Shown: in pieces, positions 2,341-56,232 of the stretch
Numbering within the stretch: the stretch's first letter is position 1
How the letters are laid out: each line of letters opens with the position of its first letter
Source of the DNA: Alcanivorax sp. DG881
GTDB taxonomy: Bacteria; Pseudomonadota; Gammaproteobacteria; Pseudomonadales; Alcanivoracaceae
DNA length: 56,232 bases
Reading direction: 5' to 3'
Assembly: GCF_000155615.1 (NCBI RefSeq)
Contig: NZ_DS989915.1
Coordinates: forward strand, 1,810,799 to 1,867,030
The notes under the pieces: generated by a model
The model's database searches: none
The model's input: only the letters and a program-made list of their open reading frames with translations
What the model was told of the DNA's origin: nothing
Position numbers and translations under genes: made by a program

Positions 2341-2372
2341 AGTTGAAAGTTCAAAGTGAAAAGTTGAAAAGG
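2341..2372 (+). repeat. Heptad repeat array, AGTTNAA family, left arm
   Basis: Four successive 7-bp units (AGTTGAA, AGTTCAA, AGTGAAA, AGTTGAA) follow one another without gaps in the OsmC-folA gap. An inverted counterpart lies at 2511-2540, and the folA terminator hairpin is between the two arms. Confidence 0.75.
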
Positions 2373-2434
2373 AAATAGAGTCCGGTCTGTATGACTGCGA
2401 GCGAAAGAGGGCGTTTTCCTGAAAAGGGTAAGCC

Positions 2435-2475
2435 CAAAAACAAAAAGGCCACGTCCTGATTCTGGACGCGGCCTC
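2435..2475 (-). terminator. Rho-independent terminator after folA
   Basis: On the minus strand, GGCCGCGTCC pairs with GGACGTGGCC around a short AT-rich loop and is followed by TTTTTG and further T residues. It lies about 65 bp downstream of the folA stop and probably ends the TauE-lgt-thyA-folA unit. Confidence 0.8.
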
Positions 2476-2510
2476 TTTCGGTTAGGAGTGCACCCTAACC
2501 TTCAGCGCGT

Positions 2511-2540
2511 TTGAACTTTACACTTTCAACTTTGAACTCA
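2511..2540 (-). repeat. Heptad repeat array, AGTTNAA family, right arm
   Basis: Read on the minus strand, the units are AGTTCAA, AGTTGAA, AGTGTAA and AGTTCAA. It is the inverted partner of 2341-2372 and overlaps the folA stop codon. Confidence 0.75.
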
Positions 2541-3047
2541 TTTCCGTTCGTACACCACGAAGGAATAATCGTAGGGATTCGGGCCTTCAGCGGCGAAATC
2601 TTCACGGCCGATTTCTTTCCACTCGGAGGTCGCGTATTCGGGGAAAAATGTATCCCCGTCGACCTCGGCATGGACTTCGGTGAGATAAAGTCGCTGGGTT
2701 TGCGGTAACGCCAGCGCATAGATTTCCGCACCGCCCATGATCACCGCCTCTTCCTGCCCTTCGATAAACGCCACATTTCCCGCCATGGTGATAGCGTCCT
2801 CCACGGTGGTCACCACCTTGGCACCCTCGGCCAGATAATCCGGCTGGCGGGTAATCACGATGTTGGTGCGCCCGGGCAGCGGCCCTTTCAGTGACTCCCA
2901 GGTCTTGCGGCCCATGATCACCGGCTTGCCGAACGTCACCTGCTTGAAGTATTTGAGGTCATTGGGCAGATACCAGGGCAGCTTGTTATTCCGGCCGATG
3001 ACATTGTTGCTGGCCTTGGCGACCATCATGGAAAGACGAATGGACAT
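2538..3047 (-). CDS. folA: Dihydrofolate reductase
   Basis: This 169-residue enzyme reduces dihydrofolate to tetrahydrofolate with NADPH in the cytoplasm, recycling folate after thymidylate synthase. Motifs are the N-terminal substrate loop (NVIGRNNKLPWYLPNDLKYF), the NADPH-binding GRKTWESL and the IMGGAEIY stretch. I start at the internal Met (MSIRLSMMV) preceded by AGGT; the 14 upstream codons derive from heptad-repeat DNA and do not look like DHFR. The gene follows thyA, the classic folate/dTMP pairing, across an 83-bp gap filled by a heptad inverted repeat. Confidence 0.95.
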   Translation of the reverse strand: MSIRLSMMVAKASNNVIGRNNKLPWYLPNDLKYFKQVTFGKPVIMGRKTWESLKGPLPGRTNIVITRQPDYLAEGAKVVTTVEDAITMAGNVAFIEGQEEAVIMGGAEIYALALPQTQRLYLTEVHAEVDGDTFFPEYATSEWKEIGREDFAAEGPNPYDYSFVVYERK

Positions 3048-3063
3048 GAATATACCTACGCTT

Positions 3064-3133
3064 GATGCCGGACGCCTGACGCCGGACAAAGACTCTCTCG
3101 CATCATGCGTCCGGCTTCGGGCATCAGGCGTTA
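3064..3133. repeat. Heptad inverted repeat between thyA and folA, GAYGCCG family
   Basis: The left arm (3064-3087) reads GATGCCG, GACGCCT, GACGCCG, GAC. The right arm (3101-3133), read on the other strand, gives units such as ACGCCTG, ATGCCCG, AAGCCGG and ACGCATG. Together they fill almost the whole gap, and the right arm runs into the thyA stop codon. Confidence 0.7.
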
Positions 3134-3964
3134 GATTGCCACCGGCGCCTTGATGTGCGCGGCGGGTTCGTAATTGCTGACGGTGAAATCGTCAAAAGTG
3201 AAAGCGAACAGATCCTTCACCGCCGGATTCAGCGTCATCGTCGGCAGCGGACCAGGCGTGCGGGCCAGTTGGGTGTCAGCCTGCTCCAGATGGTTGGAGT
3301 ACAGGTGCGCATCACCCAGGGTATGCACGAAATCGCCCGGCTGCAGGTCACACACCTGGGCCATCATCAACGTCAGCAACGCATAGGAAGCAATATTGAA
3401 CGGCACGCCGAGGAAGATATCACCGCTGCGCTGATACAACTGACAGCTCAGCTTGCCGTCGGCTACATAGAACTGAAACAGGCAGTGGCACGGCGGCAGC
3501 GCTTGCTTGCCCGCCGCCGCATTGGCATCCGGCGAGATAGACGGATCCGGCAATACCGCCGGGTTCCAGGCGCTGACCACCAGGCGTCGAGAGTCCGGGT
3601 TGCGCTTGATTTCTTCCAGCACCTCGCTGATCTGGTCAATCACTCCGCCGTCCGGGGTTTTCCAGCTACGCCACTGCTCACCATAAACCGGGCCCAGCTC
3701 GCCCTCAGGGGTCGCCCAGCCATCCCAGATGGATACCCCGTTTTCTTTCAGGTAACGGATATTGGTGTCACCGGACAGGAACCACAGCAGCTCGTGAATA
3801 ATCGAGCGCAGGTGCAGTTTCTTGGTGGTGAGCATGGGGAAACCCTGGCTCAGGTCGTAACGCATCTGATAGCCAAACACCGCATAGGTGCCGGTACCGG
3901 TACGGTCTTCCTTGTAGGTGCCGTTCTCGCGGACGTGACGAAGCAGATCAAGATATTGCTTCAT
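3131..3964 (-). CDS. thyA: Thymidylate synthase
   Basis: This 277-residue enzyme methylates dUMP to dTMP using methylene-tetrahydrofolate. The catalytic Cys is in [12 protein letters not shown], with the substrate-binding [21 protein letters not shown] and the folate/dimer region [15 protein letters not shown] all present. It carries a small insertion before the catalytic Cys ([14 protein letters not shown]), so it is a little longer than the 264-residue E. coli enzyme. It overlaps the upstream lgt stop by four bases (ATGA), showing translational coupling, as in many gammaproteobacteria. Confidence 0.97.
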
Positions 3965-4758
3965 GACTTCACTCCTCGCTCATCGTTTCGATACGCCCAA
4001 ACCAGCATGGCAATACCGAGAATAATCATCGGAATGCTCAGCAACATGCCCATGGTTAACCAGCCGCCAGCCAGATAACCGATGTGGGCGTCCGGCTCCC
4101 GGAAGAATTCCACAAAGGTGCGCGCGCAGCCATAACCGATACCGAACAGGGCCGTCACCGCCCCCGCCGGGCGAGGTTTGGCCGAATAGACCCACAACAC
4201 CAGAAACAACAGCACGCCCTCCAGCAGCATCTCGTACAGCTGGGAAGGATGTCGCGCGATCTGCAGCGGGTCGGTGGGGAACACCGTGGCCCAGGGGGCA
4301 TCACTGGCGCGGCCCCACAGCTCGGCATTCATGAAATTACCGAAGCGGCCGGTGGCCAGCCCGATGGGTACCATGGGCACCATGAAATCCGCCACCTGAA
4401 AATACCGTTTGCCGGTTTTCCGGGCGAACAGCCAGAAGGCCACCAGCACCCCAATGGCGCCACCGTGGAAACTCATGCCCCCTGTCCACACCGCAAACAG
4501 CCACAGCGGGTCGGCCAGGAACTTGTCGATATTATAGAAGAACACGTAGCCCAGCCGGCCACCGACGATCACGCCCATGGCGCCGTAAAATACCAGATCG
4601 CCCACCTGATCCTTGGTCCAGCCGGAATGCGGTTGTTTGGCCCGGTACATGCCCAGCAACCAGGCGGCGGCAAAACCGAACATGTACATCAGGCCGTACC
4701 AGTGCACTTTCAGGGGGCCGATGGCGAACGCCACCGGGTCGATCTGCGGGAATTCCAT
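3961..4758 (-). CDS. lgt: Prolipoprotein diacylglyceryl transferase
   Basis: Lgt is the inner-membrane enzyme that adds diacylglycerol from phosphatidylglycerol to the lipobox Cys of prelipoproteins. The 265-residue sequence has about seven membrane segments. It also has the family signature [13 protein letters not shown] and the conserved YGLMYMFGF and [11 protein letters not shown] stretches with their key His and Arg. Several lipoproteins in this window depend on it. It lies 6 bp after the TauE-family gene and overlaps thyA, so TauE-lgt-thyA-folA is probably one transcript. Confidence 0.96.
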
Positions 4759-4764
4759 AGGTTG

Positions 4765-5568
4765 TTATCCAAAAGCCAGTTTGAGGCCAAGCACAAAAAG
4801 CACCAGAGCGAAGACCTTTTTCAAGGTGGCGGACGGCAGCCGGTGGCTGAGCCGCGCACTCAGGCGCGCAAACGGGAAGCTGGTGAGCACTATACCGGCT
4901 GTGGCGGGCAAAAACACATAGCCCAGGGCGCCATCCGGCAAGTGCTGCTCATTCCAACCGGCCACCGCAAACCCCAGCGTGCCGGCAATGGCAATGGGTA
5001 ACCCACAGGCGGAGGAAATGGCCACGGCTTCCTGCATTTTCAACCGGCACCAGCTCAGAAACGGCACCGTCAACGAGCCACCGCCGATACCGAAAATCGC
5101 AGAGCCAGTACCAATCAGCAACCCGGCCAGGCCCAGTCCCGGCGCACCGGGCACCCGCTGTGGCAGGCTTTCATCCAGCGCCTTGCGACCGGCCAGCAAC
5201 ATCTGCAGGGCAATCAGCATGGCAAACAGACCGAACAGACGGGCCAACAGTTCCCCATCCATGGCATCGGCGATAAACGCCCCCGCAAAGGCACCGAGTA
5301 CAATTCCCACGCCCAGACGTAATGCCACCGGCCAGCGCACGAAACCGGCCTTGTGATGAGTGCGCACGGCGCTGATAGAGGTAATGATGATGGTACTCAA
5401 GGACGTGGCCACCGCCATTTTGGCGACCAGTTCGTCAGGAAAGCCCAGCCCGTGAAACAGGAAAATCAGGGCCGGCACGATGACCACACCACCGCCCAAC
5501 CCCAGCGCCCCCGCCAGCAGCCCGGCGCCCACACCCACGCCCAGACAGATCAGAAACAGTTCCAGCAC
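4765..5568 (-). CDS. TauE/SafE-family anion exporter
   Basis: This 267-residue inner-membrane protein has about eight hydrophobic segments. It carries the duplicated Gly-rich motifs typical of TauE/SafE (GALGLGGGVVIVPALIFL near the N-terminus; IGTGSAIFGIGGGSLTVPFL in the second half). The family exports sulfite, sulfoacetate and related organosulfonates; the substrate cannot be read from sequence. It is the first gene before lgt-thyA-folA, a neighbourhood common in gammaproteobacteria. Confidence 0.9.
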   Translation of the reverse strand: MLELFLICLGVGVGAGLLAGALGLGGGVVIVPALIFLFHGLGFPDELVAKMAVATSLSTIIITSISAVRTHHKAGFVRWPVALRLGVGIVLGAFAGAFIADAMDGELLARLFGLFAMLIALQMLLAGRKALDESLPQRVPGAPGLGLAGLLIGTGSAIFGIGGGSLTVPFLSWCRLKMQEAVAISSACGLPIAIAGTLGFAVAGWNEQHLPDGALGYVFLPATAGIVLTSFPFARLSARLSHRLPSATLKKVFALVLFVLGLKLAFG

Positions 5569-5617
5569 AACCTCTCCAACACAACTCGTGGCAAGGCAGG
5601 TATGCTAGCACGGAGTA

Positions 5618-5656
5618 ACGCGACACGCTGGACGCAACACGTCCCACGCTAACCGC
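5618..5656 (+). repeat. Heptad repeat array, ACGCNNN family
   Basis: Five consecutive 7-bp units (ACGCGAC, ACGCTGG, ACGCAAC, ACGTCCC, ACGCTAA) lie between the divergent TauE-family and NRDE genes. It is a single arm with no clear partner. Confidence 0.65.
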
Positions 5657-5679
5657 AATGAACAGCCTGGAAAAAGTGA

Positions 5680-6453
5680 ATGTGTATTGTCTTGCTCGAC
5701 TGGCAGCCTGAATCAAACACGCCATTAAAAGTAGCCGCCAATCGGGATGAATTTCATGCGCGGCCGGCGGAAGCGGCGCGCTGGCGCGGGGATATCTTCT
5801 GCGGGCTGGACCTGACGGCCGGCGGCACCTGGCTGGGCATCCACCGTAATGGTCGCTTCGCCGTGGTCACCAATTACCGCGAGCCGATCACCGGCCGCCA
5901 GCGCGGCGAACGCTCCCGGGGCCTGCTGCCCTTCGCTTTTCTGGAAGGGCAACAAAGCCCGGAACAGTTCAGCCACACCCTCGCAGAAGAGCAGCATCAC
6001 TACGGCGCCTTCAACCTGCTGGTGGGCACGGTAAGCACAGACACCACCCGCGACAGCCTGTGGTATCTGGGCAACCGTGGCGCGGCGCCGCAAGCGGTCC
6101 AGCCCGGCATTCACGGCCTCAGCAATGGCCTGCTGGACGATCCCTGGCCCAAGGTGGAGCGGGCCAAACAGAACCTGGCCGACGCCATCGCGGCAGGCGG
6201 AAACCTGCAGCAGCTACTGCAGGTGGTTAACGACCATTATCAACCCCGCGACAGCGAACTGCCTGACACCGGCGTCGGGGTGGAACTTGAACGGCTGGTG
6301 GCCCCGGTCTTTATCCAGTCGGAAACCTACGGTACCCGCGCCAGCAGCGCGGTGATTCTGGACCGTGAACAGGGCCCGCAAATGCTGGAGCAAGTGTGGC
6401 AGCCGGACGGTCACCCCGCCGGCCACCCGAATCGCAGTTTCAGCAACGCTTAG
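5680..6453 (+). CDS. NRDE/TANGO2-family protein
   Basis: This 257-residue protein belongs to the NRDE family, named for the Asn-Arg-Asp-Glu motif seen here as VAANRDEFHARPAEAA (about residues 18-33). The start is well fixed because Cys2 directly follows Met1 (MCIVLLDW); the family is thought to have an Ntn-hydrolase-like fold with Cys2 as N-terminal residue. Eukaryotic TANGO2 homologues are linked to haem or lipid handling; the bacterial role is not settled. It stands alone, divergent from the TauE-lgt block. Confidence 0.85.
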   Translation: MCIVLLDWQPESNTPLKVAANRDEFHARPAEAARWRGDIFCGLDLTAGGTWLGIHRNGRFAVVTNYREPITGRQRGERSRGLLPFAFLEGQQSPEQFSHTLAEEQHHYGAFNLLVGTVSTDTTRDSLWYLGNRGAAPQAVQPGIHGLSNGLLDDPWPKVERAKQNLADAIAAGGNLQQLLQVVNDHYQPRDSELPDTGVGVELERLVAPVFIQSETYGTRASSAVILDREQGPQMLEQVWQPDGHPAGHPNRSFSNA

Positions 6454-6503
6454 CCGCTGTCAGAGAAAACCTTGTTGTCGGCCGGCCGAAAGCCGGCCAA
6501 CTC

Positions 6504-7937
6504 TTACTCCTCGCCCAACATCACCCCGGCATAAAAGCGCACCATCCGCGGATACTGCTCTCTGGACAGGCGTTCGTTGTGGCCATGGAAGCGTGGCAAG
6601 TCGTCCTGACTCAGGGCAACAGGCATAAAGCGGAAAATCTGATCGGACACGGGCTGATAATGGCGCGCATCCGTGCCGGCGATCAGCAGGAAAGGCGCCA
6701 CCACCGGTTGCTCCGGCAAAGACCGGGCAAGGCCCGCCAGACGCTCAAAGGCAGGGGAAGGAATCTCGCTGGTCGGTGACGGGTCAGACAGAAAGGTGTC
6801 CAGGGGCGTCACGGTGATCGAATCCGGCAACTGCTCTTCCAGATAGGCCAGCAAGGATTCACGGCTTTCCCCCGGCGCCAGGCGGAAGTTGATGGTCGCT
6901 TCGGCAGTGGCGGGAAGCACATTATCCTTGACCCCGGCACGCAACAGCGTCGGCGACATGGTGGTGCGAACCAGGGCATTGGTTTCCGGTTTTCCGGCTA
7001 ACTGTTTAACGATTAATGGCTCAAACAACCACAAATTGGCAAACACCATTCGCTTGGCAAACGGCTGATACGGCGCTACCTGCTGCAGCATTTTGCGGGT
7101 AGGTTCGCTCAACCCGGCGGGGCGAGGATTTTCCTGCAAGGCCGCAATAGCGTTGGCCAGATCCCCCACCGCCGTTTTCGCAGGCGGGCGGGAGGAATGC
7201 CCCGGTTCCGCGCGGGCTTCCAGGGTCACGGTCATGTAGCCTTTCTCGGCAATGCCGATCAACGCCACCGGCTGCTCAATGCCCAGGGTGCTGCCGGGCA
7301 GCATCATGCCGCCTTCGTCCAGCACCATGCCAAATCGCAGGCCCTGCTCTGCCATCCAGTCCGCCATGCGGCTGGCGCCTTCACTGCCACCGGTTTCTTC
7401 ATCGTGACCGAACGCCAGCCACACATCACAGGCCGGTGCACGCCCATCCGCCAACAAGGCTTCGGTGGCTTCCAGGATCGCCATCAGGCTGCCCTTGTCA
7501 TCCATGGCGCCACGGCCCCAGACAAACTGTGAATCCACCACGCCGGCGAAAGGCGGGTGTTCCCAGGCATCCGGGGACGACACCGGCACCACATCCTGAT
7601 GGGCCAACAGCAAGACAGGCGCACAGTCTGTCCCGGAATCCCAGTGATAAAGCAGGCTGTGACCGAAGGTTTTCAGTGAGAGAGCTTCATGGCTCAACGG
7701 GAAAGACTGGCGCAGAAAATCATGGAAGCCATCAAAGGCTTGTGGCTGATCCGGCAAGGTAGCAAATCGCAGGGCACGGGAGAGACGTGCGGTCATCTCG
7801 GATTCGTTCAATGCAGATTCAAAAACCGGCAGAGGGATAACCGTTTCGTTGGGCTCTTTTACCTTCAAGGTGTTGAACAACAGCACCGCCAGCAACACAA
7901 GCAACGACACCACGATCAACAAGAACGCGCGCTTCAT
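6504..7937 (-). CDS. M20-family metallopeptidase, membrane-anchored
   Basis: This 477-residue protein starts with a hydrophobic segment (MKRAFLLIVVSLLVLLAVLLF), so the catalytic part probably faces the periplasm. Di-zinc ligands of the M20/ArgE/DapE/CPG2 fold are visible: LLAHQDVVPV (His), GRGAMDDKGSL (bridging Asp), and the Glu pair in GHDEETGGSEG. Length and layout resemble carboxypeptidase S / PM20D1, enzymes acting on peptides or N-acyl amino acids. The start is the internal Met preceded by GGGAGAGAG. It is monocistronic and lies just downstream of repeat element A, which may supply or disturb its promoter. Confidence 0.88.
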   Translation of the reverse strand: MKRAFLLIVVSLLVLLAVLLFNTLKVKEPNETVIPLPVFESALNESEMTARLSRALRFATLPDQPQAFDGFHDFLRQSFPLSHEALSLKTFGHSLLYHWDSGTDCAPVLLLAHQDVVPVSSPDAWEHPPFAGVVDSQFVWGRGAMDDKGSLMAILEATEALLADGRAPACDVWLAFGHDEETGGSEGASRMADWMAEQGLRFGMVLDEGGMMLPGSTLGIEQPVALIGIAEKGYMTVTLEARAEPGHSSRPPAKTAVGDLANAIAALQENPRPAGLSEPTRKMLQQVAPYQPFAKRMVFANLWLFEPLIVKQLAGKPETNALVRTTMSPTLLRAGVKDNVLPATAEATINFRLAPGESRESLLAYLEEQLPDSITVTPLDTFLSDPSPTSEIPSPAFERLAGLARSLPEQPVVAPFLLIAGTDARHYQPVSDQIFRFMPVALSQDDLPRFHGHNERLSREQYPRMVRFYAGVMLGEE

Positions 7938-7965
7938 GACTCTCTCCCGATAAGTTTTTTTATTT

Positions 7966-8173
7966 GCTTCATCACGAATTAGAGTGAATAACACGCTTCA
8001 CGCCGTCTTATGCTTTTATCGCGAATACCCAGCACTTTGCAGAGAACATGGCGGCCAAGGTTTTCAGGTTTTGGTCACCGTCCGGCGTCGGGCATCCGGC
8101 GTCCAGCCGTTGCCAGGGCGGGATAATGAGACAAGTCCTGAAGCCGACGTATCACTCAAGTCCGCGATGAACC
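7966..8173 (+). repeat. TIR-bounded intergenic element, copy A
   Basis: About 208 bp between the M20 gene and ptsP has imperfect terminal inverted repeats (left GCTTCATCACGAATTAGAG; right end, complemented, GGTTCATCGCGGACTTGAG). Both ends continue into segments nearly identical to the element at 25264-25500, in the opposite orientation. The centre differs and holds GACGCCG heptads. T-rich runs flank both sides. No open reading frame of note is seen, so it resembles a non-autonomous mobile repeat. Confidence 0.75.
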
Positions 8174-8204
8174 TTTTATTTTTAACGCCCTCACTCTCGG
8201 TGTG

Positions 8205-11016: not shown

Positions 11017-11208
11017 GTTGTCTCTTCGAATCCACGCGCAATCGTGAATTCTGGCTCCTTGTCAGCCCATTAAACCTTGCCGGGCAACCTGCGATCAATG
11101 CACAACCGTGCAACAAACGCACCAAAACAAACCTGGAACGTGATGAATCCACCGGTATGACTTGTCATCCGCTTCGCATAAAATGGCTCCTTCACGTAAG
11201 GAGAGGCC

Positions 11209-11862: not shown

Positions 11863-11874
11863 CCGGAATTGTTT

Positions 11875-17381: not shown

Positions 17382-17382
17382 C

Positions 17383-17423
17383 CGCAACACGCAACACGCA
17401 ACACGCAACACGCAACACGCAAA
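17383..17423 (+). repeat. Perfect heptad tandem repeat, CGCAACA x5
   Basis: Five exact copies of CGCAACA plus a partial sixth begin 2 bp after the cupredoxin stop codon and end about 20 bp before the DUF411 start. It is the most regular array in the window. It lies within a likely operon, so it would be transcribed into the leader of the next gene. Confidence 0.9.
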
Positions 17424-17944: not shown

Positions 17945-18006
17945 AGTGGCGAGTAACGAGTGGCGAAAGTCAAAATCAGCTTTCGAAACTCGTTACTCAA
18001 CACTCG
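17945..18006. repeat. Heptad inverted repeat, GAGTNNC family
   Basis: The left arm has units GAGTAAC, GAGTGGC, GAAAGTC. The right arm, read on the other strand, has GAGTGTT, GAGTAAC, GAGTTTC, GAAAG. The inner parts (CGAAAG / CTTTCG and flanking units) pair, so the RNA could form a long hairpin after the DUF411 stop, possibly ending the operon. Confidence 0.75.
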
Positions 18007-21923: not shown

Positions 21924-22743
21924 ATGAAAACCGTCATTAGGGAACCTCTGAAAAACTCCTTACATGCTCAGTCGTTCAGGCTGGTTCACTATCTAGGCGC
22001 AATTTTGAAGGTGTATGTCGATCCATCGAGAAATTGCAACAACGAGTGTGGGCCAGCCTGAACGACCCGGAGGGCGAGGCCTGAAGCGCCCATCTGCTGC
22101 GCCTTGTCTCTAGGAAAGGGAACCACCCTGTCCGTCGAGGCAAGACACAACAGCTGCACGCTTCAGGTCTCGCTGAGCACGCAAGGAGTTTTTCAGAGGT
22201 TCCCTAACTCTGCTCGTTATCGCGCTGCTTGCCACCGCCATCATCGGCATCGTCATTGCCACAGGCAGCTACAATTTTGCGGCCGACGAACCGCACTGGA
22301 GCGTGACCGAGAAAATCATCGGTACCGCTCGCCACCGCTCCATTGACCTGCGAGCAAAACATATTCCGGTGCCCAACGACCTGGATGATCCGCAACGAAT
22401 TGGTCGGGGCGCAGAGCACTACCAGGCCATGTGCGTGGGCTGCCACCTGGCGCCGGGAATCGAGGAGAGCGAACTGCGTGAAGGCATGTATCCGCAACCG
22501 CCAGCATTGGCGGAACACGGGATTCATGATCCGAAAGGCGCCTATTGGGTCATCAAGCACGGCATCAAAATGAGCGGCATGCCCGCTTGGGGAAAAAGCC
22601 ACGACGAGCAAAGCCTGTGGGACATGGTGGCGTTACTCAGCGCCCTGCCCTCACTGAGCGAAAACGATTGGCAGGCACTACTGGACGACTCAGGCACAGC
22701 ACCCGCCGGCCAGGGGCACGGCGGTGCTGGCCATCATCACTGA
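21924..22743 (+). pseudogene. Membrane cytochrome c split by a MITE-like insertion
   Basis: The 3' part encodes a class I cytochrome c with the haem site AMCVGCHLAPG, the axial Met in KMSGMPAWG and a His-rich tail ending GHHH. A hydrophobic anchor (LLVIALLATAIIGIVIATG) precedes it, in frame, but no start codon remains. The original start ATG AAA ACC GTC, with ribosome site AGGGAG, lies at 21924, separated by the 265-bp element at 21940-22204. Joining the flanks with one TA leaves the frame off by one base, so a small extra change also occurred. A GTG at 22303 could give a leaderless, non-exported fragment. In intact loci this would be the third gene after copA-copB. Confidence 0.85.
21938..22206. 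mobile_element. MITE-like non-autonomous insertion (265 bp, TA flanks)
   Basis: The terminal inverted repeats begin GGGAACCTCTGAAAAACTCC and match at 30 of 32 positions, the first 22 without mismatch. TA dinucleotides flank both ends, consistent with a TA target duplication. A second internal inverted repeat (GTCGTTCAGGCTGG at 21971, its complement at 22053) forms an inner stem. No transposase fragment of useful length is seen. The parent transposase family is not assigned; TA duplications occur in IS630/mariner and in some IS5-group elements. The right end carries an outward AAGGAG. Confidence 0.88.
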
Positions 22744-23456: not shown

Positions 23457-23473
23457 GGTCTCTCGCTTTTTTA

Positions 23474-23508
23474 CGCAATCATGCTACACGCGGCACGCTA
23501 ACACGCCG
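23474..23508 (-). repeat. Imperfect heptad array, GCGTNNN family
   Basis: On the minus strand, units GCGTGTTA, GCGTGCC, GCGTGTA, GCATGATT and GCGTAAA follow each other with a 7-8 bp period. They fill the gap between moaA and can. It is related to the ACGCNNN arrays at 5.6 and 17.4 kb but less regular. Confidence 0.5.
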
Positions 23509-25263: not shown

Positions 25264-25500
25264 GGTTCATCGCGGAATTGAGTGATCAGCCAGCTTCAGA
25301 GCGTGTCGCATTGTCCCGCCCTGGCAACCGCTGGACGCCGGATGCCCCTCAAAGCAGGAGGCCCTAATAACGACAACCTCTCAGGCTATGGGGTTTTACG
25401 TCAGGCATCCGGCGTCCAGCGTTTGGCAAAGTGCCGGGTATTCGCGATAAACCCATCAAACGGCAAGTAGCGTATTATTCACTCTAATCCGCGAAGAACC
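25264..25500 (-). repeat. TIR-bounded intergenic element, copy B
   Basis: This 237-bp element has ends GGTTCATCGCGGAATTGAG and, complemented, GGTTCTTCGCGGATTAGAG. Over roughly 70-90 bp at each end it matches copy A (7966-8173) in inverted orientation. Examples are TTATCGCGAATACCC with GCACTTTGC, and GGCATCCGGCGTCCAGC with GTTGCCAGGGCGGGA. The centre differs and carries two facing GACGCCG-GATGCC heptad segments. T runs flank both ends. It separates slyD from murI. Confidence 0.78.
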
Positions 25501-34986: not shown

Positions 34987-34992
34987 GAGCGA

Positions 34993-35151
34993 CAAGCCTC
35001 AAGCCGCAAGCTACAACATGAAGAACACCATGAAGAAGACCGCAGCACTATCGCCGCGTCGCAAACGCTAGAGGTTATTCGCGTGGCATGACATACCTGC
35101 TTGCAACACCTCTCTCGCGTTGCAGCTTGTAGCTTGTAGCTTGTAGCTTTC
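34993..35151. repeat. Heptad inverted repeat, CAAGCNN family, between cobO and cobQ
   Basis: The left arm (from 34993) reads CAAGCCT, CAAGCCG, CAAGCTA, CAACATG. The right arm (35117-35151), complemented, reads as three CTACAAG units plus flanks. The arms face each other across about 95 bp of unremarkable sequence and together occupy most of the gap. Confidence 0.75.
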
Positions 35152-35187: not shown

Positions 35188-35215
35188 TATTAATTATTCA
35201 TTATTAACTATTAAT
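35188..35215 (+). repeat. All-AT heptad array, TATTNAY family
   Basis: Four consecutive units TATTAAT, TATTCAT, TATTAAC, TATTAAT contain only two C residues, in a genome of about 60% GC, and run into the cobO stop codon. Another heptad family occupies the same gap. Confidence 0.85.
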
Positions 35216-35826
35216 TAAAGTTCGACTCCCTTCTGCGCTTTCACCCCCAGATCCTTGAACGCATGCTTCACCACTTTCATCTCGGTCACCGTATCCGCCA
35301 GTTCAATCAGTTCCTTCGGTGCATAGCGACCGGTGACCACGGCGTGCTGCATGGCCGGGCGATTTTGCAGGTCGTCCAGCACCCGATCCAGATCAAGGTA
35401 TTCGTAGCGTAATGCGATATTGAGTTCATCCAGCAGCACCATGTGGTAGCTATCGTCCTGGAGCATGGCACTGGCGATATCCCAGGCGGCATTGGCGGCC
35501 GCCACGTCGCGCTCCCGGTCCTGGGTATCCCAGGTATAGCCTTCGCCCATCACGTGATAATCCACATTGGGAAGTTCTCGGAAAAAAGCTTCTTCGCCGG
35601 TACTGAAGGCCCCTTTAATAAACTGCACCACGCCCACTTTCATGCCATGGCCCAACGCCCGCGCCACCATCCCGAAACCGGAACTGCTTTTGCCCTTGCC
35701 CGGCCCGGTCAACACCAGCAGGATGCCCTGCTCTTTGTCGGCATTGGCGATACGGTCGCGCATGATTTCCTGTTTTTTGGCCATGCGCCAGGCATGGCGT
35801 TCAGGGGTTTTCGCATCGTCACGCAT
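35215..35826 (-). CDS. cobO: Cob(I)alamin adenosyltransferase, CobO/BtuR type
   Basis: This 203-residue cytosolic enzyme adds the adenosyl group from ATP to cob(I)alamin or earlier corrinoids. It has the P-loop variant VLTGPGKGKSSSGFGMVARALGHG (about residues 38-60), KVGVVQFIKGAF, and MVLLDELNIALRYEYL. AGGAGACG precedes the ATG, which overlaps the cobB stop by eight bases, so translation is coupled. The three genes cobB-cobO-cobQ carry out consecutive steps. Confidence 0.95.
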   Translation of the reverse strand: MRDDAKTPERHAWRMAKKQEIMRDRIANADKEQGILLVLTGPGKGKSSSGFGMVARALGHGMKVGVVQFIKGAFSTGEEAFFRELPNVDYHVMGEGYTWDTQDRERDVAAANAAWDIASAMLQDDSYHMVLLDELNIALRYEYLDLDRVLDDLQNRPAMQHAVVTGRYAPKELIELADTVTEMKVVKHAFKDLGVKAQKGVEL

Positions 35827-45956: not shown

Positions 45957-46166
45957 TGTAGGAGCGCCACTTGAGGCGCGAACCGAGCGTCAGCGAGTGA
46001 CGAGTTGCGAAAAGCAATAAAAACCAAAACCTTTCCGGGTTTTGATTTTCGAGACTCGCTACTCGTAACTCAAAACTGTGTTGTTCGCGCCTCAAGTGGC
46101 GTATTCGCTTCGCTCACCCTTCGGGCCGACCTGCGGTCGTTACTTCGCTACGCTACGTTCCTACAG
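45957..46166. repeat. REP-type palindrome block with an internal heptad hairpin
   Basis: Outer arms CGCCACTTGAGGCGCGAAC (45965) and its exact complement (46083) are preceded by TGTAGGAG and followed by CCTACA at 46160. This matches the layout of Pseudomonas TGTAGGAGCG REP sequences. Nested inside are GAGTNNC heptad arms (45994-46017 and 46049-46076) around CCAAAACC...GGTTTTG. The block separates convergent cobC and cobU and contains no gene. Confidence 0.8.
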
Positions 46167-47269: not shown

Positions 47270-47380
47270 GTAACACTCCTTTGTTGGGCGCGCAGTATAG
47301 CGGATTTGATAGCCCCGAACCGGGCGCAGGTGACAGCAATGGTTTTTGGCTATCTCTGCCCGGTAACAGGTTTCTCGCGT

Positions 47381-48622: not shown

Positions 48623-48654
48623 GTTTCCTCCATGGTGCCGTCGCAGCGGCAGTT

Positions 48655-49167: not shown

Positions 49168-49291
49168 AGACTCTCTCCTTTCAGATGGCCTAATACTACC
49201 ACGCTCACCGCCCCGGGCTGGACAGAACAGCACCGATTGACCGTTGCCGACAGCCCCTGTTCTGCATTACATCCCGGGGGTAGATTCAATG

Positions 49292-49454
49292 GACCCGTTT
49301 CCATGGTCTCTGCGTGGATGCATGGCGCATGAATTTGCTGCCACAGGACATTTTCTGCAAGAGAGATGTAGTTGGTCTACTTCCGATTAAAGAAGGTGTT
49401 CTGTGGTAGTGAAGGCTTGTGCCAGGCGCCGCGCAGAGACCATGGAAACGGGTC
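49292..49454. repeat. 23-bp inverted repeat framing a 117-bp core upstream of P450
   Basis: GACCCGTTTCCATGGTCTCT (49292, extending three more bases) recurs as its exact complement at 49432-49454. The spacer has a weaker inner dyad (GCCACAGGACA and TGTTCTGTGG). It ends 28 bp before the P450 start codon. It could be a small MITE or a large regulatory palindrome; no clear target duplication is seen. Confidence 0.8.
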
Positions 49455-49482
49455 AATACAAGGTGTTTATCGGAGAACCGTC

Positions 49483-50847: not shown

Positions 50848-50856
50848 ATCAGCACG

Positions 50857-50918
50857 GCTTCGAGCTACCAGCTACGAGTTTTTACTCAAAGCTGACAGCT
50901 CGTAGCTCGAAGCTGCCT
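50857..50918. repeat. Heptad inverted repeat, GCTNNNA family, between P450 and mscS
   Basis: The left arm has units GCTTCGA, GCTACCA, GCTACGA. The right arm has GCTGACA, GCTCGTA, GCTCGAA. The arms are complementary (CTTCGAGCTACGAG-type stem) around GTTTTTACTCAAA. It fills the gap between convergent genes and may act as a weak terminator. Confidence 0.75.
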
Positions 50919-51749: not shown

Positions 51750-51926
51750 GATTCCCTTCCTTAGTGAGTTATGTAGACCGTTAAAATACCACCAAGACGT
51801 CATCCGCAAACCGTCACTACGTCAGAATTTGCCAATATTTACCCTTGCCCCATTGCCCGCAGGGGAATGAATCCCCCGGCGGATTAACGCTATACTGCGG
51901 GCTCATTTTCCACCGCACAGACAGCC

Positions 51927-52568
51927 ATGAAATACGCCATCCTGCCGGTCACCCAGTTTCAGCAGAACTGCTCCTTCCTGAAGTGCGAAGCCACCGACAA
52001 GGTCGCCATCGTCGACCCGGGCGGTGACCTGAACCAGATACTGGCAACCCTGAAGCAGGTGGGCGGCACCCCGGAGAAGATCCTGGTGACCCACGCCCAT
52101 CTGGACCATGTGGGCGCCGTGGCCGAGCTGGCCGAAACCTTGGGGTTGCCCATTGAAGGCCCGCACCGCGATGACCAGTTCTGGATCGACATGTTGCCCC
52201 AGCAGGCACAGATGATGGGCTTTGCGCCTTCGCCGCCGTTCACCCCGAACCGCTGGCTGGAAGGCGGCGATACCGTCACGGTGGGCAGCACCCAGCTGGA
52301 AGTACGCCATTGCCCCGGGCACACCCCCGGGCACGTCGTGTTCTATCAGCGTGAAAGCAAACTGGCCGTGGTCGGTGATGTGCTGTTCAACGGTTCCATT
52401 GGTCGTACCGATTTCCCCAAGGGGGATTTCGACACCCTGATCACCGCCATCAAGGAACAGCTGCTGACCCTGGATGACGACGTCTCCTTTATTCCCGGGC
52501 ACGGGCCCATGTCCACCATCGGCCACGAACGCACCCACAACCCCTTTGTTTCAGGCAAGCACGGATAG
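51927..52568 (+). CDS. Metallo-beta-lactamase-fold hydrolase (glyoxalase II-like, YcbL type)
   Basis: This 213-residue cytosolic hydrolase has the metal motif VTHAHLDHVGAVAEL, the second His in HCPGHTPGHVVFY, VVGDVLFNGSIGRTDFP with the bridging Asp, and FIPGHGPMSTIGHERTHNPFV. It lacks the C-terminal helical domain of true glyoxalase II and fits the YcbL group. The substrate is not certain. The next gene follows after 3 bp, so the pair is probably co-transcribed. Confidence 0.9.
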   Translation: MKYAILPVTQFQQNCSFLKCEATDKVAIVDPGGDLNQILATLKQVGGTPEKILVTHAHLDHVGAVAELAETLGLPIEGPHRDDQFWIDMLPQQAQMMGFAPSPPFTPNRWLEGGDTVTVGSTQLEVRHCPGHTPGHVVFYQRESKLAVVGDVLFNGSIGRTDFPKGDFDTLITAIKEQLLTLDDDVSFIPGHGPMSTIGHERTHNPFVSGKHG

Positions 52569-52571
52569 AAC

Positions 52572-53105
52572 ATGGATTCAGTAGTCATGAAATGGGGACT
52601 CACCGTCGTCATCGCGATTCTGGGTTGGGCCCTGTCCATCCTGCTGCGCGGCATCACCAAGCGGCTGGGTCGCCGCCGCAATTACTCCCGCGCCCGTATC
52701 TTCCAGACAGCGGTGGTCATCAACAGCGCCTGCCTGATTATCAGCCTGATCGCCATTGGGGTGTTGTGGGGATTGAAAGGCGACGGTCTGATGGTATTTG
52801 CCACCTCGCTGATGGCACTGCTCGGCGTGGCGCTGTTTGCCAGCTGGTCCATGCTCAGCAACGCCACCGCGGCCATCATTCTGTTCTTCAGCGCCCCCTA
52901 CAGAGTGGGCGACCGCATTCGCCTGCTGGACGGCGACAACACCGTCACCGGGCAGATTCGTCACATGGGACTGATCTTCATCACCATTCAGGATGAGCTG
53001 GGCCACCGTTACACCCTGCCCAATAACCTGCTGCTGCAAAAAGCCGTGATCCGCCTGCGCGGCGATACCCTGCCCCGGGATCAAAAACACATGCGGGCAG
53101 ATTAA
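52572..53105 (+). CDS. Short MscS-domain membrane protein
   Basis: This 177-residue protein has an N-terminal helix, further hydrophobic segments and the MscS pore and beta parts: SLMALLGVALFASWSMLSNATAAIILFFSAPYRVGDRIRLLDGDNTVTGQIRHMGLIFITI, then GHRYTLPNNLLLQKAVIRL. It stops right after the beta domain and lacks the large C-terminal cage, unlike the neighbouring full-length MscS. It may be a minimal channel or accessory subunit. It sits 3 bp after the hydrolase gene. Confidence 0.8.
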   Translation: MDSVVMKWGLTVVIAILGWALSILLRGITKRLGRRRNYSRARIFQTAVVINSACLIISLIAIGVLWGLKGDGLMVFATSLMALLGVALFASWSMLSNATAAIILFFSAPYRVGDRIRLLDGDNTVTGQIRHMGLIFITIQDELGHRYTLPNNLLLQKAVIRLRGDTLPRDQKHMRAD

Positions 53106-53180
53106 CGGTCACAACGCTCGGCTCGTGCCCCCTTTGGCCCGCCCGGCACAAAACATTCTCGCTGCGTTCCATTCGCCCCC

Positions 53181-53329
53181 TGTAGGAGCTCCCTTCCAGG
53201 GGACGAACCGCACATCGTCTGCAGCTCGCTCTATCTTTTCTGCCCCATCAAGACCGCCTATCAAAAATGGAGTTTGAAAGCGTGTCGCCTCGCTACGCTC
53301 GGTTCGTCCCCTGGAAGGGAACTCCTACA
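53181..53329. repeat. REP-like TGTAGGAG inverted pair
   Basis: A 30-bp arm beginning TGTAGGAGCTCCCTTCCAGG recurs as its complement at 53300-53329 with a single mismatch, across an 89-bp spacer. Each arm contains a small CCC...GGG hairpin and ends GACGAACCG. It has the same plan as the block at 45.96 kb but a different inner hairpin. It fills the convergent gap before the outer-membrane protein gene. Confidence 0.85.
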
Positions 53330-53371
53330 ACGGCTCCGTAGCGACCGCCAGGGAGCCGAGCAAGCGCGTCG

Positions 53372-54055
53372 CTACATCCTGTAGCCAAAACTCAGCATGT
53401 ACTGGGTGCCATCGTAGGGGAAATCCGCGATGGCATCGTTGAAATCCATCTCTACGGTCTGCTCGCGCACCACAACTCCGAACTCCGAATTGCCACCCAC
53501 GGAAAAGATCAGCCCCAGCGAGGCGTAAGCCCCATAGCCAAAACTAAAATCCCGGTCATCCCCGTTCACCACCACCGCCGTACTCAGCGGCTGGGGATAA
53601 GGCTTTTCCTGTTCCTGCTTCAGGGAGCCCATCAGCAACATGGGGCCACCGGAGACAAACAGCCGCGCGCGATCACTGAAATTGATATCCCCGTAGCCTC
53701 CCAGCAGGGTGCCGAACAGGAACATCTCATTCTCCACCTTGACGTTCACGGTGGCGCCGCCATTCACCACCCCCGAATAGCTCACCGAATCGTTCTGCCA
53801 GCTGATCACCGCACCGCCTTCATAGCCGTAACGGAAGCGATCGCCGCCTCCCAGAATTTTCTGCACCCCGCCGGTGAAGAACGGCAAATCATCGTAGTCC
53901 CCATCCAGCGTGGTGCCATTGGCAGTCACCGTGGTGTCCTCATCGTTCAGCTGCAGCTTGCCGGCCTGCAGGAACATGTATTGAGCATCCTGCGCCCAGG
54001 CCGGCGCCGCCAGCAGCCCACCCACCAGGCTGATAATCCGCAATCCTTGTCTCAC
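53372..54055 (-). CDS. Outer-membrane beta-barrel protein
   Basis: This 227-residue exported protein (signal RIISLVGGLLAAPAWA) has a mature part of short amphipathic strands and Gly/Asp-rich turns, and ends SFGYRM. The size suggests an 8-10 strand barrel; no specific family is recognised. I choose a GTG start at 54055 because GGGGGGAGACC lies just before it; an ATG at 54094 has no ribosome site and adds a poor N-terminus. It is divergent from the Kunitz-domain gene. Confidence 0.7.
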   Translation of the reverse strand: MRQGLRIISLVGGLLAAPAWAQDAQYMFLQAGKLQLNDEDTTVTANGTTLDGDYDDLPFFTGGVQKILGGGDRFRYGYEGGAVISWQNDSVSYSGVVNGGATVNVKVENEMFLFGTLLGGYGDINFSDRARLFVSGGPMLLMGSLKQEQEKPYPQPLSTAVVVNGDDRDFSFGYGAYASLGLIFSVGGNSEFGVVVREQTVEMDFNDAIADFPYDGTQYMLSFGYRM

Positions 54056-54215
54056 CGGTCTCCCCCCTCTGCAACACCTTGATAGCAACAGCATAGTGCA
54101 GATTTTCTACCAAGAACATGAACCGGTTACCGCCGCATTCAGAGTCCGGTAAAGTAGCAGCAACGGAGAATACCCGGCCCCACGGAGGGAACCGGAAACC
54201 CATAAAGGAACTGCC

Positions 54216-54548
54216 ATGCGAACCCTGCTGCTTCCCCTCATTACCGCCTTGATTGCCGCAGCCGCCCTGCTCAGTGGCTGCCAGAACAACCAGGAACCCG
54301 GCACCGCCACACTCCCGGATGCCTGCTCCCAGCCGCCGGAATCCGGCATGTGCAAAGCCGCATTCCAGCGCTATTACTACGATGCCGACACCGGCAGCTG
54401 CCAGACCTTTATCTGGGGCGGCTGCAAGGGTAGCGTGCCGTTTGAAACCCTGGAGGCCTGCACCCAGGCCTGTAATGCCACCGGCAGTCCAGCTCCCGCC
54501 AAGGGCGCCCCCGTCAGCACATCCGCCACCAAAGAGGCCCAACAATGA
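54216..54548 (+). CDS. Kunitz/BPTI-domain lipoprotein (predicted serine protease inhibitor)
   Basis: This 110-residue lipoprotein has signal LLPLITALIAAAALLSGC (lipobox Cys 22) and one Kunitz domain, residues 37-86. All six Cys are present at 37, 46, 62, 70, 82 and 86. Spacings are 8, 15, 7, 11 and 3 (BPTI has 8, 15, 7, 12 and 3). The core RYYYDADTGSCQTFIWGGC mirrors BPTI, and Lys47 after the second Cys would be the P1 residue, predicting trypsin-like targets. A Pro/Ala/Ser tail follows. AAGGAA precedes the ATG. It overlaps the next gene by ATGA. Confidence 0.9.
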   Translation: MRTLLLPLITALIAAAALLSGCQNNQEPGTATLPDACSQPPESGMCKAAFQRYYYDADTGSCQTFIWGGCKGSVPFETLEACTQACNATGSPAPAKGAPVSTSATKEAQQ

Positions 54549-54883
54549 GTAACACCAGCACCGCCAGCCTGGCACGTGTCGTCTACGTCCTGCACCTGGT
54601 CGGCCTGATCACCGGCGGGCTCACAGCCATCGTCGGCGTCATCATCGCCCACCTTCATGCCGGCGACGCCTCACCACCGCTGCGCGAACACTTTCGTTTC
54701 CAGTACCGCACCTTCTGGATCGGCTTGCTGTACTGGTTCATCGCCGGCATCACCACCCTGGCCCTGATTGGCTGGCTGCTGATGGTGGTGATCACCATCT
54801 GGTGGATCATACGCTGCGCCCGGGGCCTGAGCGCCCTGAACCGCAACCAGCCCCCCGGCAAGATCGACACCTGGGGCTTTTGA
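54545..54883 (+). CDS. Small DUF4870-like membrane protein
   Basis: This 112-residue protein has three hydrophobic segments (VVYVLHLVGLITGGLTAIVGVIIAHL, TFWIGLLYWFIAGITTLALIGWLLMVVITIWWIIRCARGL). The pattern of the DUF4870/TIGR-type membrane family, including HFRFQYRTFW between helices, is visible. Function is unknown. It overlaps the Kunitz gene by four bases, so the two are co-translated, which may hint at a shared envelope role. Confidence 0.75.
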   Translation: MSNTSTASLARVVYVLHLVGLITGGLTAIVGVIIAHLHAGDASPPLREHFRFQYRTFWIGLLYWFIAGITTLALIGWLLMVVITIWWIIRCARGLSALNRNQPPGKIDTWGF

Positions 54884-54973
54884 TACCCGTCCGGCCTACC
54901 TGTCACATAAATGACATAGATGCCGGCCAGACTGGCCGGCTCGCTCCCCTCAACCCGCTCCCAAGGAGAAGTC

Positions 54974-55672
54974 ATGTTGTCCCTGCGCCTGCTTACCCTC
55001 ACCCTCTGCACCCTGTTTCTCGCCGCCTGCGCCCGCAGCCCGGTAGTCCAGCTGTACGACGGCCCGGCCAAAGCCGACAGCCAGGTGCTCACCGTGAAGG
55101 TCCCCAGCGAAATTGAAGTGTTCACCATCAACGGCAAGGAAGTGGAAGGCGTGAACACCTTCTTCGCCACCGACTTCAAGGAACTGAAACTGGCCCCCGG
55201 CCGCTATGAGATTCTCGCTTACTACAAGGAGCTGTGGCAGCTGGATGCGGACAACCATGAAATCGTGAAAAGTAATCCGGCCAACTTTGTCATCGACGGC
55301 AAGGCCGGCGATCAATGGCAGCTGGGCTTCAACCAGCCACAAGACGTGGAGCAGGCCCGCGCCATGGAAGACAGCTTCAGCGGCTGGGTAGCAAACAGCA
55401 AGACCGGTGAGCGAGTGGACGCCCAGGAATCCGGGCTGATCCTCAACCGCGGCTTTCTGGCCCCCATCGCCGGCGAAGAAGTGACCACTGCCACCAGCAA
55501 CAGCGTAGCCCCCCAGGCCTCAGCAGGTGCTGCCGCCGGCGCCACCGCTGCCAGCGCAAAAAAGAGCACCACCGTGGCCCCGGAAGCCAGCTACCTAGAC
55601 ACCCTGAAAGCGCAGTGGAAACAGGCCACCGCAGAAGAACGCCGCGAATTCCTGCAATGGATTGCGGAATAA
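54974..55672 (+). CDS. DUF2057-family lipoprotein-like secreted protein
   Basis: This 232-residue exported protein has signal MLSLRLLTLTLCTLFLAAC (possible lipobox Cys about 19). The conserved DUF2057 (YccT) N-terminal part follows: SEIEVFTINGKEVEGVNTFF, LKLAPGRYEILAYYKELWQLDADNHEIVKSNP. An Ala/Ser-rich linker comes next, and the C-terminal helix LKAQWKQATAEERREFLQWIAE is shared by several Oceanospirillales paralogues. The Met with AAGGAGAAG is chosen. Function is unknown. A heptad array begins 8 bp after the stop. Confidence 0.8.
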   Translation: MLSLRLLTLTLCTLFLAACARSPVVQLYDGPAKADSQVLTVKVPSEIEVFTINGKEVEGVNTFFATDFKELKLAPGRYEILAYYKELWQLDADNHEIVKSNPANFVIDGKAGDQWQLGFNQPQDVEQARAMEDSFSGWVANSKTGERVDAQESGLILNRGFLAPIAGEEVTTATSNSVAPQASAGAAAGATAASAKKSTTVAPEASYLDTLKAQWKQATAEERREFLQWIAE

Positions 55673-56232
55673 CGAAAAACGAGTTTCGAGTTTCGAGTTT
55701 CGAGTTTCTCCGGGAACTGTTCCACCTCTTCCGGGAAGTGACCGTTATAAATCACCTGGGAAGACCACAGGTTACGCGCCACATTGGCCGTCAGGTTACC
55801 GGCGAACACGAAGGGGGCGAACGGACCCGCCAGGGCCGGGAACAACAGATAGTCCTTGACCAATTGCTTGCGCATCTTCTTCCAGGTCGGCTTGAATTCG
55901 GCCTTCACCTCTTCCTTGGTCTTGGTCTTGTAGATCAGGTAGTCCTCCAGCTTGAGGCTCTGAATCGCCACAAAGTGCTGGAAGAAGGTAGCCAGGATGC
56001 CTGCCAGGATCGGGTTGAACAGGAAGCGGGGCTCCCATTCCTGGTCTTCCGACATGCGCAGGATGCCGTAACCAATGTCATGGTCCTTGTCGAGCACGTT
56101 GGTGAAGGTGTGGTGCTCGAAATTGTGGGTCTGCTTCCAGGCCGTGTTGGTGCAGGTGTTGTCCCAGTCAAAAACCTTGGAGTTAATGGCCGGATCACCC
56201 ATCCAGTCGTACTGGCCGTGCATCACGTTATG
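55591..56232 (-). pseudogene. Truncated fatty-acid desaturase (3' part lost at a heptad array; 5' end off the window)
   Basis: The minus-strand frame enters from the right edge and encodes two of the three His boxes of a membrane fatty-acid desaturase: HNVMHGQYDWMG (HxxxH) and HNFEHHTFTNV (HxxHH), with helices FNPILAGILATFFQHFVAIQSL and LLFPALAGPFAPFVFAGNL. Family-like sequence stops at EEVEQFPE (codon 55708-55710). The frame then runs through the GAGTTTC array and antisense into the DUF2057 gene until a stop at 55591. The third His box and C-terminal half, needed for the di-iron site, are absent. It is therefore judged non-functional, unless the break is an assembly fault. Confidence 0.8.
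55681..55708 (+). repeat. Perfect heptad array GAGTTTC x4
   Basis: Four exact copies of GAGTTTC lie between the DUF2057 stop and the point where desaturase homology ends. It is of the GAGTNNC family also found at 17.9 and 46.0 kb. Confidence 0.88.

Follow-up and report, generated by a model that had tools for sequence, protein, structure and literature searches.

What does it mean that tandem arrays of different heptads, in different gene gaps of one bacterium, all keep the same 7-nt period? The question arises from a stretch of 56,232 nt (the window) of Alcanivorax sp. DG881 (contig NZ_DS989915.1, positions 1,810,799 to 1,867,030). The window is part of a 3.80-Mb genome (G000), which was compared with relatives of the same genus (G001-G016), among them A. 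jadensis (G003), A. hongdengensis (G005), A. nanhaiticus (G009), A. profundi (G014), and G015, which is probably A. borkumensis SK2. All compared pairs are different species, and mutation is inferred from comparison. The arrays have a strict period of 7, are found only in intergenic DNA, occur as facing arms, and are placed at the 3' ends of genes, and their units are homogenised species by species. At one gap the heptad has changed while the hairpin core was kept, and one species nested in the genus has lost the arrays. We consider the chances about even that these are 3'-end hairpins with 7-nt microsatellite arms, homogenised by slippage and perhaps by inter-arm templating, with some families that may disperse.

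Strength and distribution of the 7-nt period

Lag scanning counts self-matching segments at each lag in intergenic and coding DNA. Genes were called by a home-made codon-score caller, and the resulting gaps may contain missed small genes. The G000 sample consisted of the window and 20 evenly spaced 20-kb stretches (268 intergenic pieces, 64,362 nt; 391,641 nt coding), and expectation was taken from 20 Markov-4 replicates. Intergenic DNA gave 28 segments at lag 7 (0.05 expected), 15 and 6 at lags 14 and 21, and 0 to 2 at each other lag between 2 and 22. Coding DNA gave 3 segments at lag 7 against 2 expected, which is no excess, so the intergenic 7-bp period claimed by the first-pass annotation is borne out. 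The window alone had 4 lag-7 segments, and each of 10 shuffles had 0. Tandem 7-nt units beyond chance, the mark of heptameric simple sequence repeats, are present.

The period is shared by the genus. In 81,192 intergenic nt from the 16 relatives, G015 included (about 5 kb counted twice because G007 stretches overlap), there were 67 segments at lag 7 and 3 at lags 2-6, 8-13, and 15 combined. Samples of 40 kb from each of G003, G014, and G015 had 0 lag-7 segments; genome-wide, G003 and G014 have 13-25 pattern matches for each of three heptad families. Larger samples gave 25 segments in 58.1 kb of G000 and 37 in 53.3 kb of G004, a density of about 4-7 per 10 kb, and 3 in 50.0 kb of G015 without a peak at 7. 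A scan of 49 of 72 named loci found 24 segments in 32.2 kb of Alcanivorax (12 loci, largely repeating regions already sampled) and 6 in 33.1 kb of other Alcanivoracaceae (20 loci), three of the six in Alloalcanivorax mobilis. One locus of that species (L176), outside the genus, carries long arrays of CGCTGGA (x8) and GACGTCG (about x10) that resemble Alcanivorax families. The AGCNNTG heptad, used as the backward control of the GAGTNNC pattern, had 113 matches in G008 and 89 in G016, which indicates that another heptad family has expanded there.

In most or many bacterial genomes, heptamers are reported to be the most frequent of the long simple repeats (Mrazek 2007, cited through passages of PMC4692102 and PMC4679880), and the 7-nt step has been guessed to reflect the length of DNA in contact with the polymerase (passages of PMC4692102, PMC4679880). 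A later survey, with author overlap with the earlier heptamer work, described longer tandem repeats as normally to weakly over-represented (passages of PMC4060949). The Alcanivorax arrays could accordingly be ordinary background, merely the general bacterial excess of heptamer repeats, since a bias toward heptamers and heptad arrays that face each other have been described in other bacteria (passages of PMC4692102, PMC4679880), the facing arrays in Xanthomonas (passages of PMC4692102). However, 20 outgroup genomes at order, class, or phylum level (20 stretches) had 1 lag-7 segment in 44.2 kb and 17 loci of other bacteria had 0 in 37.9 kb, against the density given above for G000 and G004, and this explanation appears highly improbable. 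The genus is a good test of heptamer bias, with near relatives that have many arrays and one nested relative that has almost none. For the excess of 7-nt repeats in bacteria, the sole explanation in the passages seen is the untested polymerase contact length.

A FastTree tree of 12 concatenated proteins places G015 as sister to G000 and G007 (support 1.00), inside the genus, although some deep nodes are weak. The lack of arrays in G015 is therefore most simply a loss, and G015 gaps contain degenerate array remnants. Candidate factors were sought. Genes for Y1_Tnp, the transposase domain of REP-associated tyrosine transposases (RAYT; REP, repetitive extragenic palindromic), occur in 16 of the 17 genus genomes, and the sole one without is G015; RAYT as the cause correlates within the genus and fails outside it. 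The hairpin nuclease SbcD was not found above cut-off in any of the 17 (G006 has a sub-threshold match), which is possibly permissive, but G015 and many outgroups also lack it, so its absence cannot explain the difference. Y-family polymerases are present in all 17 genomes, including G015. Per-genome density of REP-like sequences had no obvious relation to heptads (counts only).

Facing arms at the 3' ends of genes

Eleven sites had been listed in the window. Nine are confirmed, and two (5618, 23474) are weak, visible by eye and below the scan threshold. Eight were found by Tandem Repeats Finder (TRF) and/or the lag-7 scan (2341/2510, 3064, 17383, 34988/35120, 35188, 46049, 50857/50885, 55680) and the ninth, 17945-18006, by pattern and fold. 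The 5618 array, with five ACGY units here, passes the threshold in six orthologues (G001, G002, G004, G006, G008, G012). The arrays and arms are:

2341 to 2369, plus strand: AGTTNAA array, left arm, in the convergent osmC-like/folA gap (TRF, lag-7 segment)
2510 to 2538, minus strand: AGTTNAA array, right facing arm, abutting the folA stop codon (TRF, lag-7; inverted similarity 0.84)
3064 to 3087, plus strand: GAYGCCN array, left arm of the folA-thyA gap hairpin (TRF, lag-7; fold z -5.1)
3106 to 3130, minus strand: facing arm of the folA-thyA gap hairpin, abutting the thyA stop codon (direct reading, fold)
5618 to 5652, plus strand: ACGCNNN single-arm array upstream of a TANGO2-like gene, weak (by eye; orthologues)
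17383 to 17422, plus strand: CGCAACA x5.7, perfect copies, single arm directly after a stop codon (TRF; 14 nt longer in G007)
17945 to 18006, plus strand: GAGTNNC facing-arm hairpin (reading, pattern; fold z -6.1)
23473 to 23505, plus strand: degenerate CACGCNN-like heptads, about five units, weak (by eye only; below threshold)
34988 to 35016, plus strand: CAAGCNN array, left arm (TRF, lag-7)
35120 to 35149, minus strand: CAAGCNN array, right facing arm (TRF, lag-7; inverted similarity 0.81)
35188 to 35217, minus strand: TATTNAY array, reaching the stop codon of a CobA/CobO/BtuR-like gene (TRF, lag-7)
45994 to 46076, plus strand: GAGTNNC facing-arm hairpin nested in an inverted GTAGGAGC-type REP-like pair (pattern; fold z -8.0 for 45960-46106)
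50857 to 50914, plus strand: GAGCTAC (GCTNNNA) facing-arm hairpin, most of the 71-nt P450/mechanosensitive-channel gap (TRF; fold z -6.7)
55680 to 55708, plus strand: CGAGTTT x4.1, lone left arm starting 8 nt after a stop codon (TRF, pattern)

Arrays are present at the same gaps in independent assemblies (17383 in G007 and G008; 50857 in G007 and G016) and so are not assembly artefacts. TATTNAY heptads of the 35188 array recur at two other stretches (L028, L026). An Rfam search of the window gave no match on the arrays at gathering score.

The statement that intact genes contain no array stands, with one nuance. The 35188 array extends no further than the stop codon of the gene beside it, and the 55680 array sits in a frame that looks truncated. 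This minus-strand frame (55591-56226) matches the Pfam fatty-acid-desaturase profile at positions 59-174 of 253, and the plus-strand frame at the array has no Pfam match. Because the desaturase-like frame continues through the array into the neighbouring DUF2057 gene, the desaturase looks truncated at the array and not intact. After the DUF2057 gene, G007, G009, G014, and G016 share a whole GAGTNNC facing-arm hairpin with alike loops, and G000 keeps only its left arm, ending at the truncated frame. From the sequence, a rearrangement seems to have broken the hairpin here, a possible breakpoint at a heptad array.

Facing arms, as originally described, predominate where arrays are neighbours. Among neighbouring array pairs in one gap of G000-G016 (G015 included, identical gaps removed), 34 of 40 resemble each other more in inverted than in direct orientation; 26 lie above the 95% level for random inverted pairs, and 4 above that for random direct pairs. 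Arrays cover 7.7% of intergenic nt in convergent gaps, 3.0% in tandem gaps, and 1.0% in divergent gaps. The placement against stop codons is likewise upheld: 76 of 191 distances between an array and a 3' end are at most 15 nt (28.5 expected), compared with 13 of 97 distances to a 5' end (16.2 expected).

Three classes were recognised. Class I consists of an AAGTTNA, AAGTTNC, AAGCTNC, or TTAATAN arm, ACGCG, roughly 95 nt that in most cases contain a GAGGCCGCG-type GC hairpin, CGCGT, and the facing arm. A strict search found 11; their cores carry a GC-rich stem, and the three that were folded had z -7.6 to -11.0. Class II is (GAGTNNC)n GAAANNC AAAA, a loop, and the mirrored sequence (48 hairpins, with 33 further left-type arms that lack a partner by the same rule). 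Class III has short loops and GACGCCN, GACGTCN, CACGCNN, or GAGCTAC arms. Single-arm arrays also exist (17383, 5618). Across eight facing-arm pieces tested, stable folds were predicted (z -4.8 to -11.0). The architecture of integron attC sites, a hairpin after a stop codon with a free loop, is similar; tandem heptads do not fit attC.

In one family the N positions of the two arms match. In 31 AAGTTNA arm pairs among the matches listed (one match used where an arm had two), the N positions agree across arms at 0.60, compared with 0.31 when shuffled over all (P 0) and 0.37 when shuffled within genomes (P 0.0002), and 15 pairs agree at both N positions. Mismatches in these pairs are few, seven of wobble type and two of the reverse type with transcription strand ignored, a small hint of RNA-level selection.

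Such features could mean that the arms are selected RNA hairpins, kept for transcript 3'-end folding (stability or termination), with 7 as a structural preference, for example five paired and two unpaired positions. The 3'-end placement, the maximum in convergent gaps, the stable folds with a GC-rich core, and the matching AAGTTNA N positions with their wobble mismatches agree with this. However, G015 manages with hardly any arms and retains the core at the single gap that was aligned, single-arm arrays exist (one folded alone had z -1.1), and selection for pairing requires no strict repeat within an arm. In GAGTNNC hairpins the N/N pairs are non-complementary, and wobble-type mismatches (20) are not in excess of the reverse type (23). 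We consider this explanation unlikely.

A DNA- or RNA-binding protein that reads 7-nt steps, three units being 21 bp or about two helical turns, is another candidate. Arms of 3-4 units are commonest in the GAGTNNC family (75 of 96), fixed positions recur every 7 nt, and innermost units are constrained. However, the fixed bases vary between families and between species at one gap, and the families form no common superfamily (rank 130 of 512 orientation sets). Protein-binding arrays are therefore very unlikely in our judgement.

Change of heptads at orthologous gaps

Orthologous gaps show the sequence turned over and the 7-nt step kept. In the P450/mechanosensitive-channel (mscS) gap, seven species share an alignable core of CGCG, a GAGGCCGCG-type hairpin, and CGCG. 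Around it the arms stand in register as AGTTNAA (G008, G014), AGTTGCA (G009), or AGCTNCA (G002, G012), with a mixed left arm in G013; in G015 the core hairpin is kept and the arms are nearly decayed to remnants. G012 and G013 have near-identical cores and right arms, and three left-arm units differ by the same change. Other species have other hairpins at this gap, GAGTNNC in G004 and GAGCTAC in G000, G007, and G016, and the gap is long with REP-like sequences in G001, G006, and G010. Arms of the folA-thyA gap are GACGCCN, GACGTCN, or CACGCNN according to species and degenerate in G015. In the osmC-like/folA gap the array starts equally far past the stop codon in these species and reads AGCTNCA in G006, G008, and G012 but AGCTACG AGTTTCG AGTTTCG in G009. 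The change of heptad between species usually affects both arms.

Units of arrays undergo concerted evolution and share species-specific changes. Identity between units is 0.81 within arrays and 0.66 between species (best phase, same gap end), and in 120 of 180 species-pair comparisons the between-species value is below both within-array values. These comparisons, like the 12 pairs used for indels below, share species, and the counts are not independent. Arrays of mixed composition connect AGTTNCA, AGCTNCA, GAGCTAC, and AGTTTCG within one register (for example, TTGNAGC inside with TCGTAGC or TCATGGC outside), which shows how one family can pass into another. The families had been described as unrelated; some are linked in this way, and ten family consensuses align no better than chance. 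One ancestral heptad for all families is not supported, the observed value of 2.603 being matched by 145 of 300 column-permuted controls.

Mutation steps were counted in 12 close-species pairs. Indels resembling tandem duplications had sizes of 3 (six), 4 (two), 5 (one), 7 (nine), and 14 nt (three) and no others, so that all 12 of at least 6 nt, at 10 distinct places, are 7 or 14 nt. All indels together have a modest peak at 7 (80, compared with 58 at 6 and 47 at 8). Unit number varies between relatives, as in the 17383 array (14 nt longer in G007). Five of the 48 GAGTNNC hairpins have one arm of 6-11 units, opposite an arm of 2-4 units in all five.

Under the reading we favour, strand slippage with a 7-nt step within an arm would gain, lose, and overwrite units, so that a variant base could spread to all of them. 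On a folded-back strand one arm may template the other, as in quasipalindrome-type template switching, which would keep both arms in one family and make the AAGTTNA N positions match. Some families, chiefly GAGTNNC, may also spread as whole polar hairpins to other 3' ends. Selection would keep the core, a putative terminator, with the arms largely passengers. Class I looks like concerted rewriting in place; class II resembles a polar hairpin under maintenance and perhaps dispersal, in which one arm occasionally expands.

Several observations weigh against this reading. The indel count is partly circular, because slippage can act only where an array is already present. If arbitrary 7-mers slipped, isolated 7-mers in two copies should be numerous, yet of 47 two-copy runs (11.5 in shuffles) just 19 lie apart from arrays, hardly above chance given about 11 two-copy runs in all in the shuffles; generic duplication of any 7-mer as the main source is not supported. 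Slippage alone also leaves the absence of 6 and 8 unexplained. The matching AAGTTNA N positions could stem from dispersal of a few near-identical copies, and many of those in G016 are T,C or C,T among the matches listed. No such matching is seen in GAGTNNC, in which N pairs across arms agree at 0.38 against 0.44 shuffled (P 0.015) and those of the innermost unit at 0.40 against 0.53 (0 of 3000 shuffles). In short GAGTNNC arms (3-5 units), adjacent units are identical at 0.089, compared with 0.125 in shuffled order (P 0.001). Fresh slippage or inter-arm copying should have the reverse effect, and the family thus appears to be maintained or dispersed instead.

The low agreement arises because GAGTNNC copies are polar. 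Arms tend to GAGAAGC GAGTTTC GAAAGGC on one side and GAGTTGC GAAAACC on the other; in 22 of 48 hairpins the innermost unit is TT in one arm and TG in the other, in 6 it is TT in both, and in 1 it is TG in both. Between loci the loop interiors show no relationship (longest common strings 4.06, 3.84 shuffled), and pattern matches range from 0 in G005 to 778 in G009, long arrays giving several matches each. The first-pass annotation had preferred a copying mechanism to dispersal of a repeat, which is doubtful for GAGTNNC given these polar hairpins and their uneven numbers.

The arrays might instead be the inverted ends of mobile hairpins, REP doublets (REPIN) or miniature inverted-repeat transposable elements (MITE), copied by a Y1 transposase (RAYT) that recognises heptads. 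Polarity, conserved arms, and loops unrelated between loci recall REPIN ends and spacer (passages of PMC3116915), the numbers of GAGTNNC matches differ hugely between species, and the only genus genome without Y1_Tnp, G015, is the one that lost its arrays. In 2 of 20 RAYT stretches (L151 of G009, L160 of G008), GAGTNNC arms lie inside REP pairs within 320 nt of the gene. However, in the other 18 none was seen within that distance of the gene or of the domain match, and a GAGTNNC pair anywhere in the whole 3-4 kb RAYT stretches (5 of 22: L147, L149, L151, L152, L160) is unsurprising given how densely those genomes carry them. Of the 48 GAGTNNC hairpins, 41 lack both an exact GTAGGAGC on the upstream side and an exact GCTCCTAC on the downstream side within 150 nt (degenerate REPs uncounted). 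Y1_Tnp is present in three other Alcanivoracaceae (G017, G018, G019) with no lag-7 array seen in the stretches examined, it was not found in a heptad-bearing metagenome-assembled genome (G116/L187, completeness unknown), and the G015 correlation amounts to a single event. Orthologous GAGTNNC hairpins have similar loops, so they are long-lived at their loci, and mobility explains neither arm change around an orthologous core nor single arms. On balance, mobile hairpins seem rather unlikely.

A tentative possibility, less likely than not, is that Alcanivorax has an active process, acting in trans and inherently stepping by 7 nt, that rewrites both fold-back arms together, with little regard to sequence, and that A. 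borkumensis lost it, after which the arrays decayed. If true, comparing the two lineages would reveal which machinery is responsible for the heptamer bias of bacterial repeats. The 7-nt copying register first proposed survives in part. The shared property is indeed the 7-nt step and not the sequence (different heptads on the same hairpin; indels of 7 or 14 nt), but isolated two-copy 7-mers are little above chance, and the period by itself does not call for an unknown element, since heptamer bias and facing heptad arrays are already published, as far as the passages cited above go. At these gaps the facing arms let slippage, templating, and dispersal be told apart.

Known heptamer repeats and neighbouring elements

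Heptameric repeats of Xanthomonas and Nostoc (GGGNATC, GGGGAYT) are the nearest in description. Like the Alcanivorax arrays, they are intergenic with a 7-nt unit and partly free positions, lie near gene ends, are rare in divergent gaps, form some facing pairs (Xanthomonas), and occupy the same gene gaps with extensive length and sequence variation between species (passages of PMC4692102). They are described there as one G-rich, quadruplex-forming family, whereas Alcanivorax has many families, common facing hairpins, and family switches at one gap, and the family units examined there lack the GGG that would give each a G3 or G4 tract. Beggiatoaceae TAACTGA repeats are also intergenic heptamer arrays, but of one heptamer, particularly upstream of start codons and almost never inverted (169 direct sets and one indirect in the main genome; passages of PMC4679880). 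Geobacter metallireducens elements (GGGACCG x4, 49 copies; MTYCTGA x5) have a short fixed unit number and are dispersed; they differ in lying inside genes too, and were proposed as regulatory RNA elements or regulator sites (passages of PMC2700814).

REP and REPIN sequences with RAYT are extragenic, high-copy hairpins with conserved inverted ends and a less conserved spacer, but have no tandem 7-nt unit and carry a GTAG/CGTC foot (passages of PMC3116915, PMC3733652). Between loci, the GAGTNNC family has such conserved inverted ends and less conserved spacer. A position beside a RAYT gene is not typical of it, being limited to the two stretches above, there inside REP-like pairs. In Alcanivorax, GTAGGAGC-type REP-like sequences coexist with heptads, and most GAGTNNC hairpins stand apart from exact REP feet.

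Short heptanucleotide repeats (STRR) of heterocystous cyanobacteria have 7-nt tandem units, as here. To our knowledge, neither facing-arm anatomy nor family switching is known for them. Calothrix heptanucleotides are mentioned in passages of PMC4692102. Full-text literature searches, beyond whose reach most subscription papers lie, found no paper on Alcanivorax heptad arrays. As far as these searches reach, the Alcanivorax trait, the many families under one period, coordinated two-arm switching, and loss in a nested species are new. For annotation, the arrays form a large hairpin class at gene 3' ends in this oil-degrading genus, without an Rfam match in the window.

Other repeats occur in the window. 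Inverted pairs of GTAGGAGC-type REP-like sequences lie at 45957-46109, in which a GAGTNNC hairpin is nested, and at 53181-53329. A dispersed repeat of about 200 bp has two inverted copies (7968-8173 and 25264-25498, 84-87% complementary) with internal CGTCCGG/CATCCGG heptads and is possibly a miniature element. At 21937-22207, 35-nt inverted ends (94% complementary) enclose 201 nt, which resembles a small terminal-inverted-repeat element. Upstream of the TANGO2-like gene, a TATGCTAGCA motif (5597-5610) directly precedes the heptads and is perhaps a promoter -10 region; it is also found in the compared gaps of the genus and in G017 and G018. The sole Rfam match in the window is a cobalamin riboswitch (RF00174, 41908-42122, minus strand, 111 bits); several cobalamin-synthesis genes also lie in the window.

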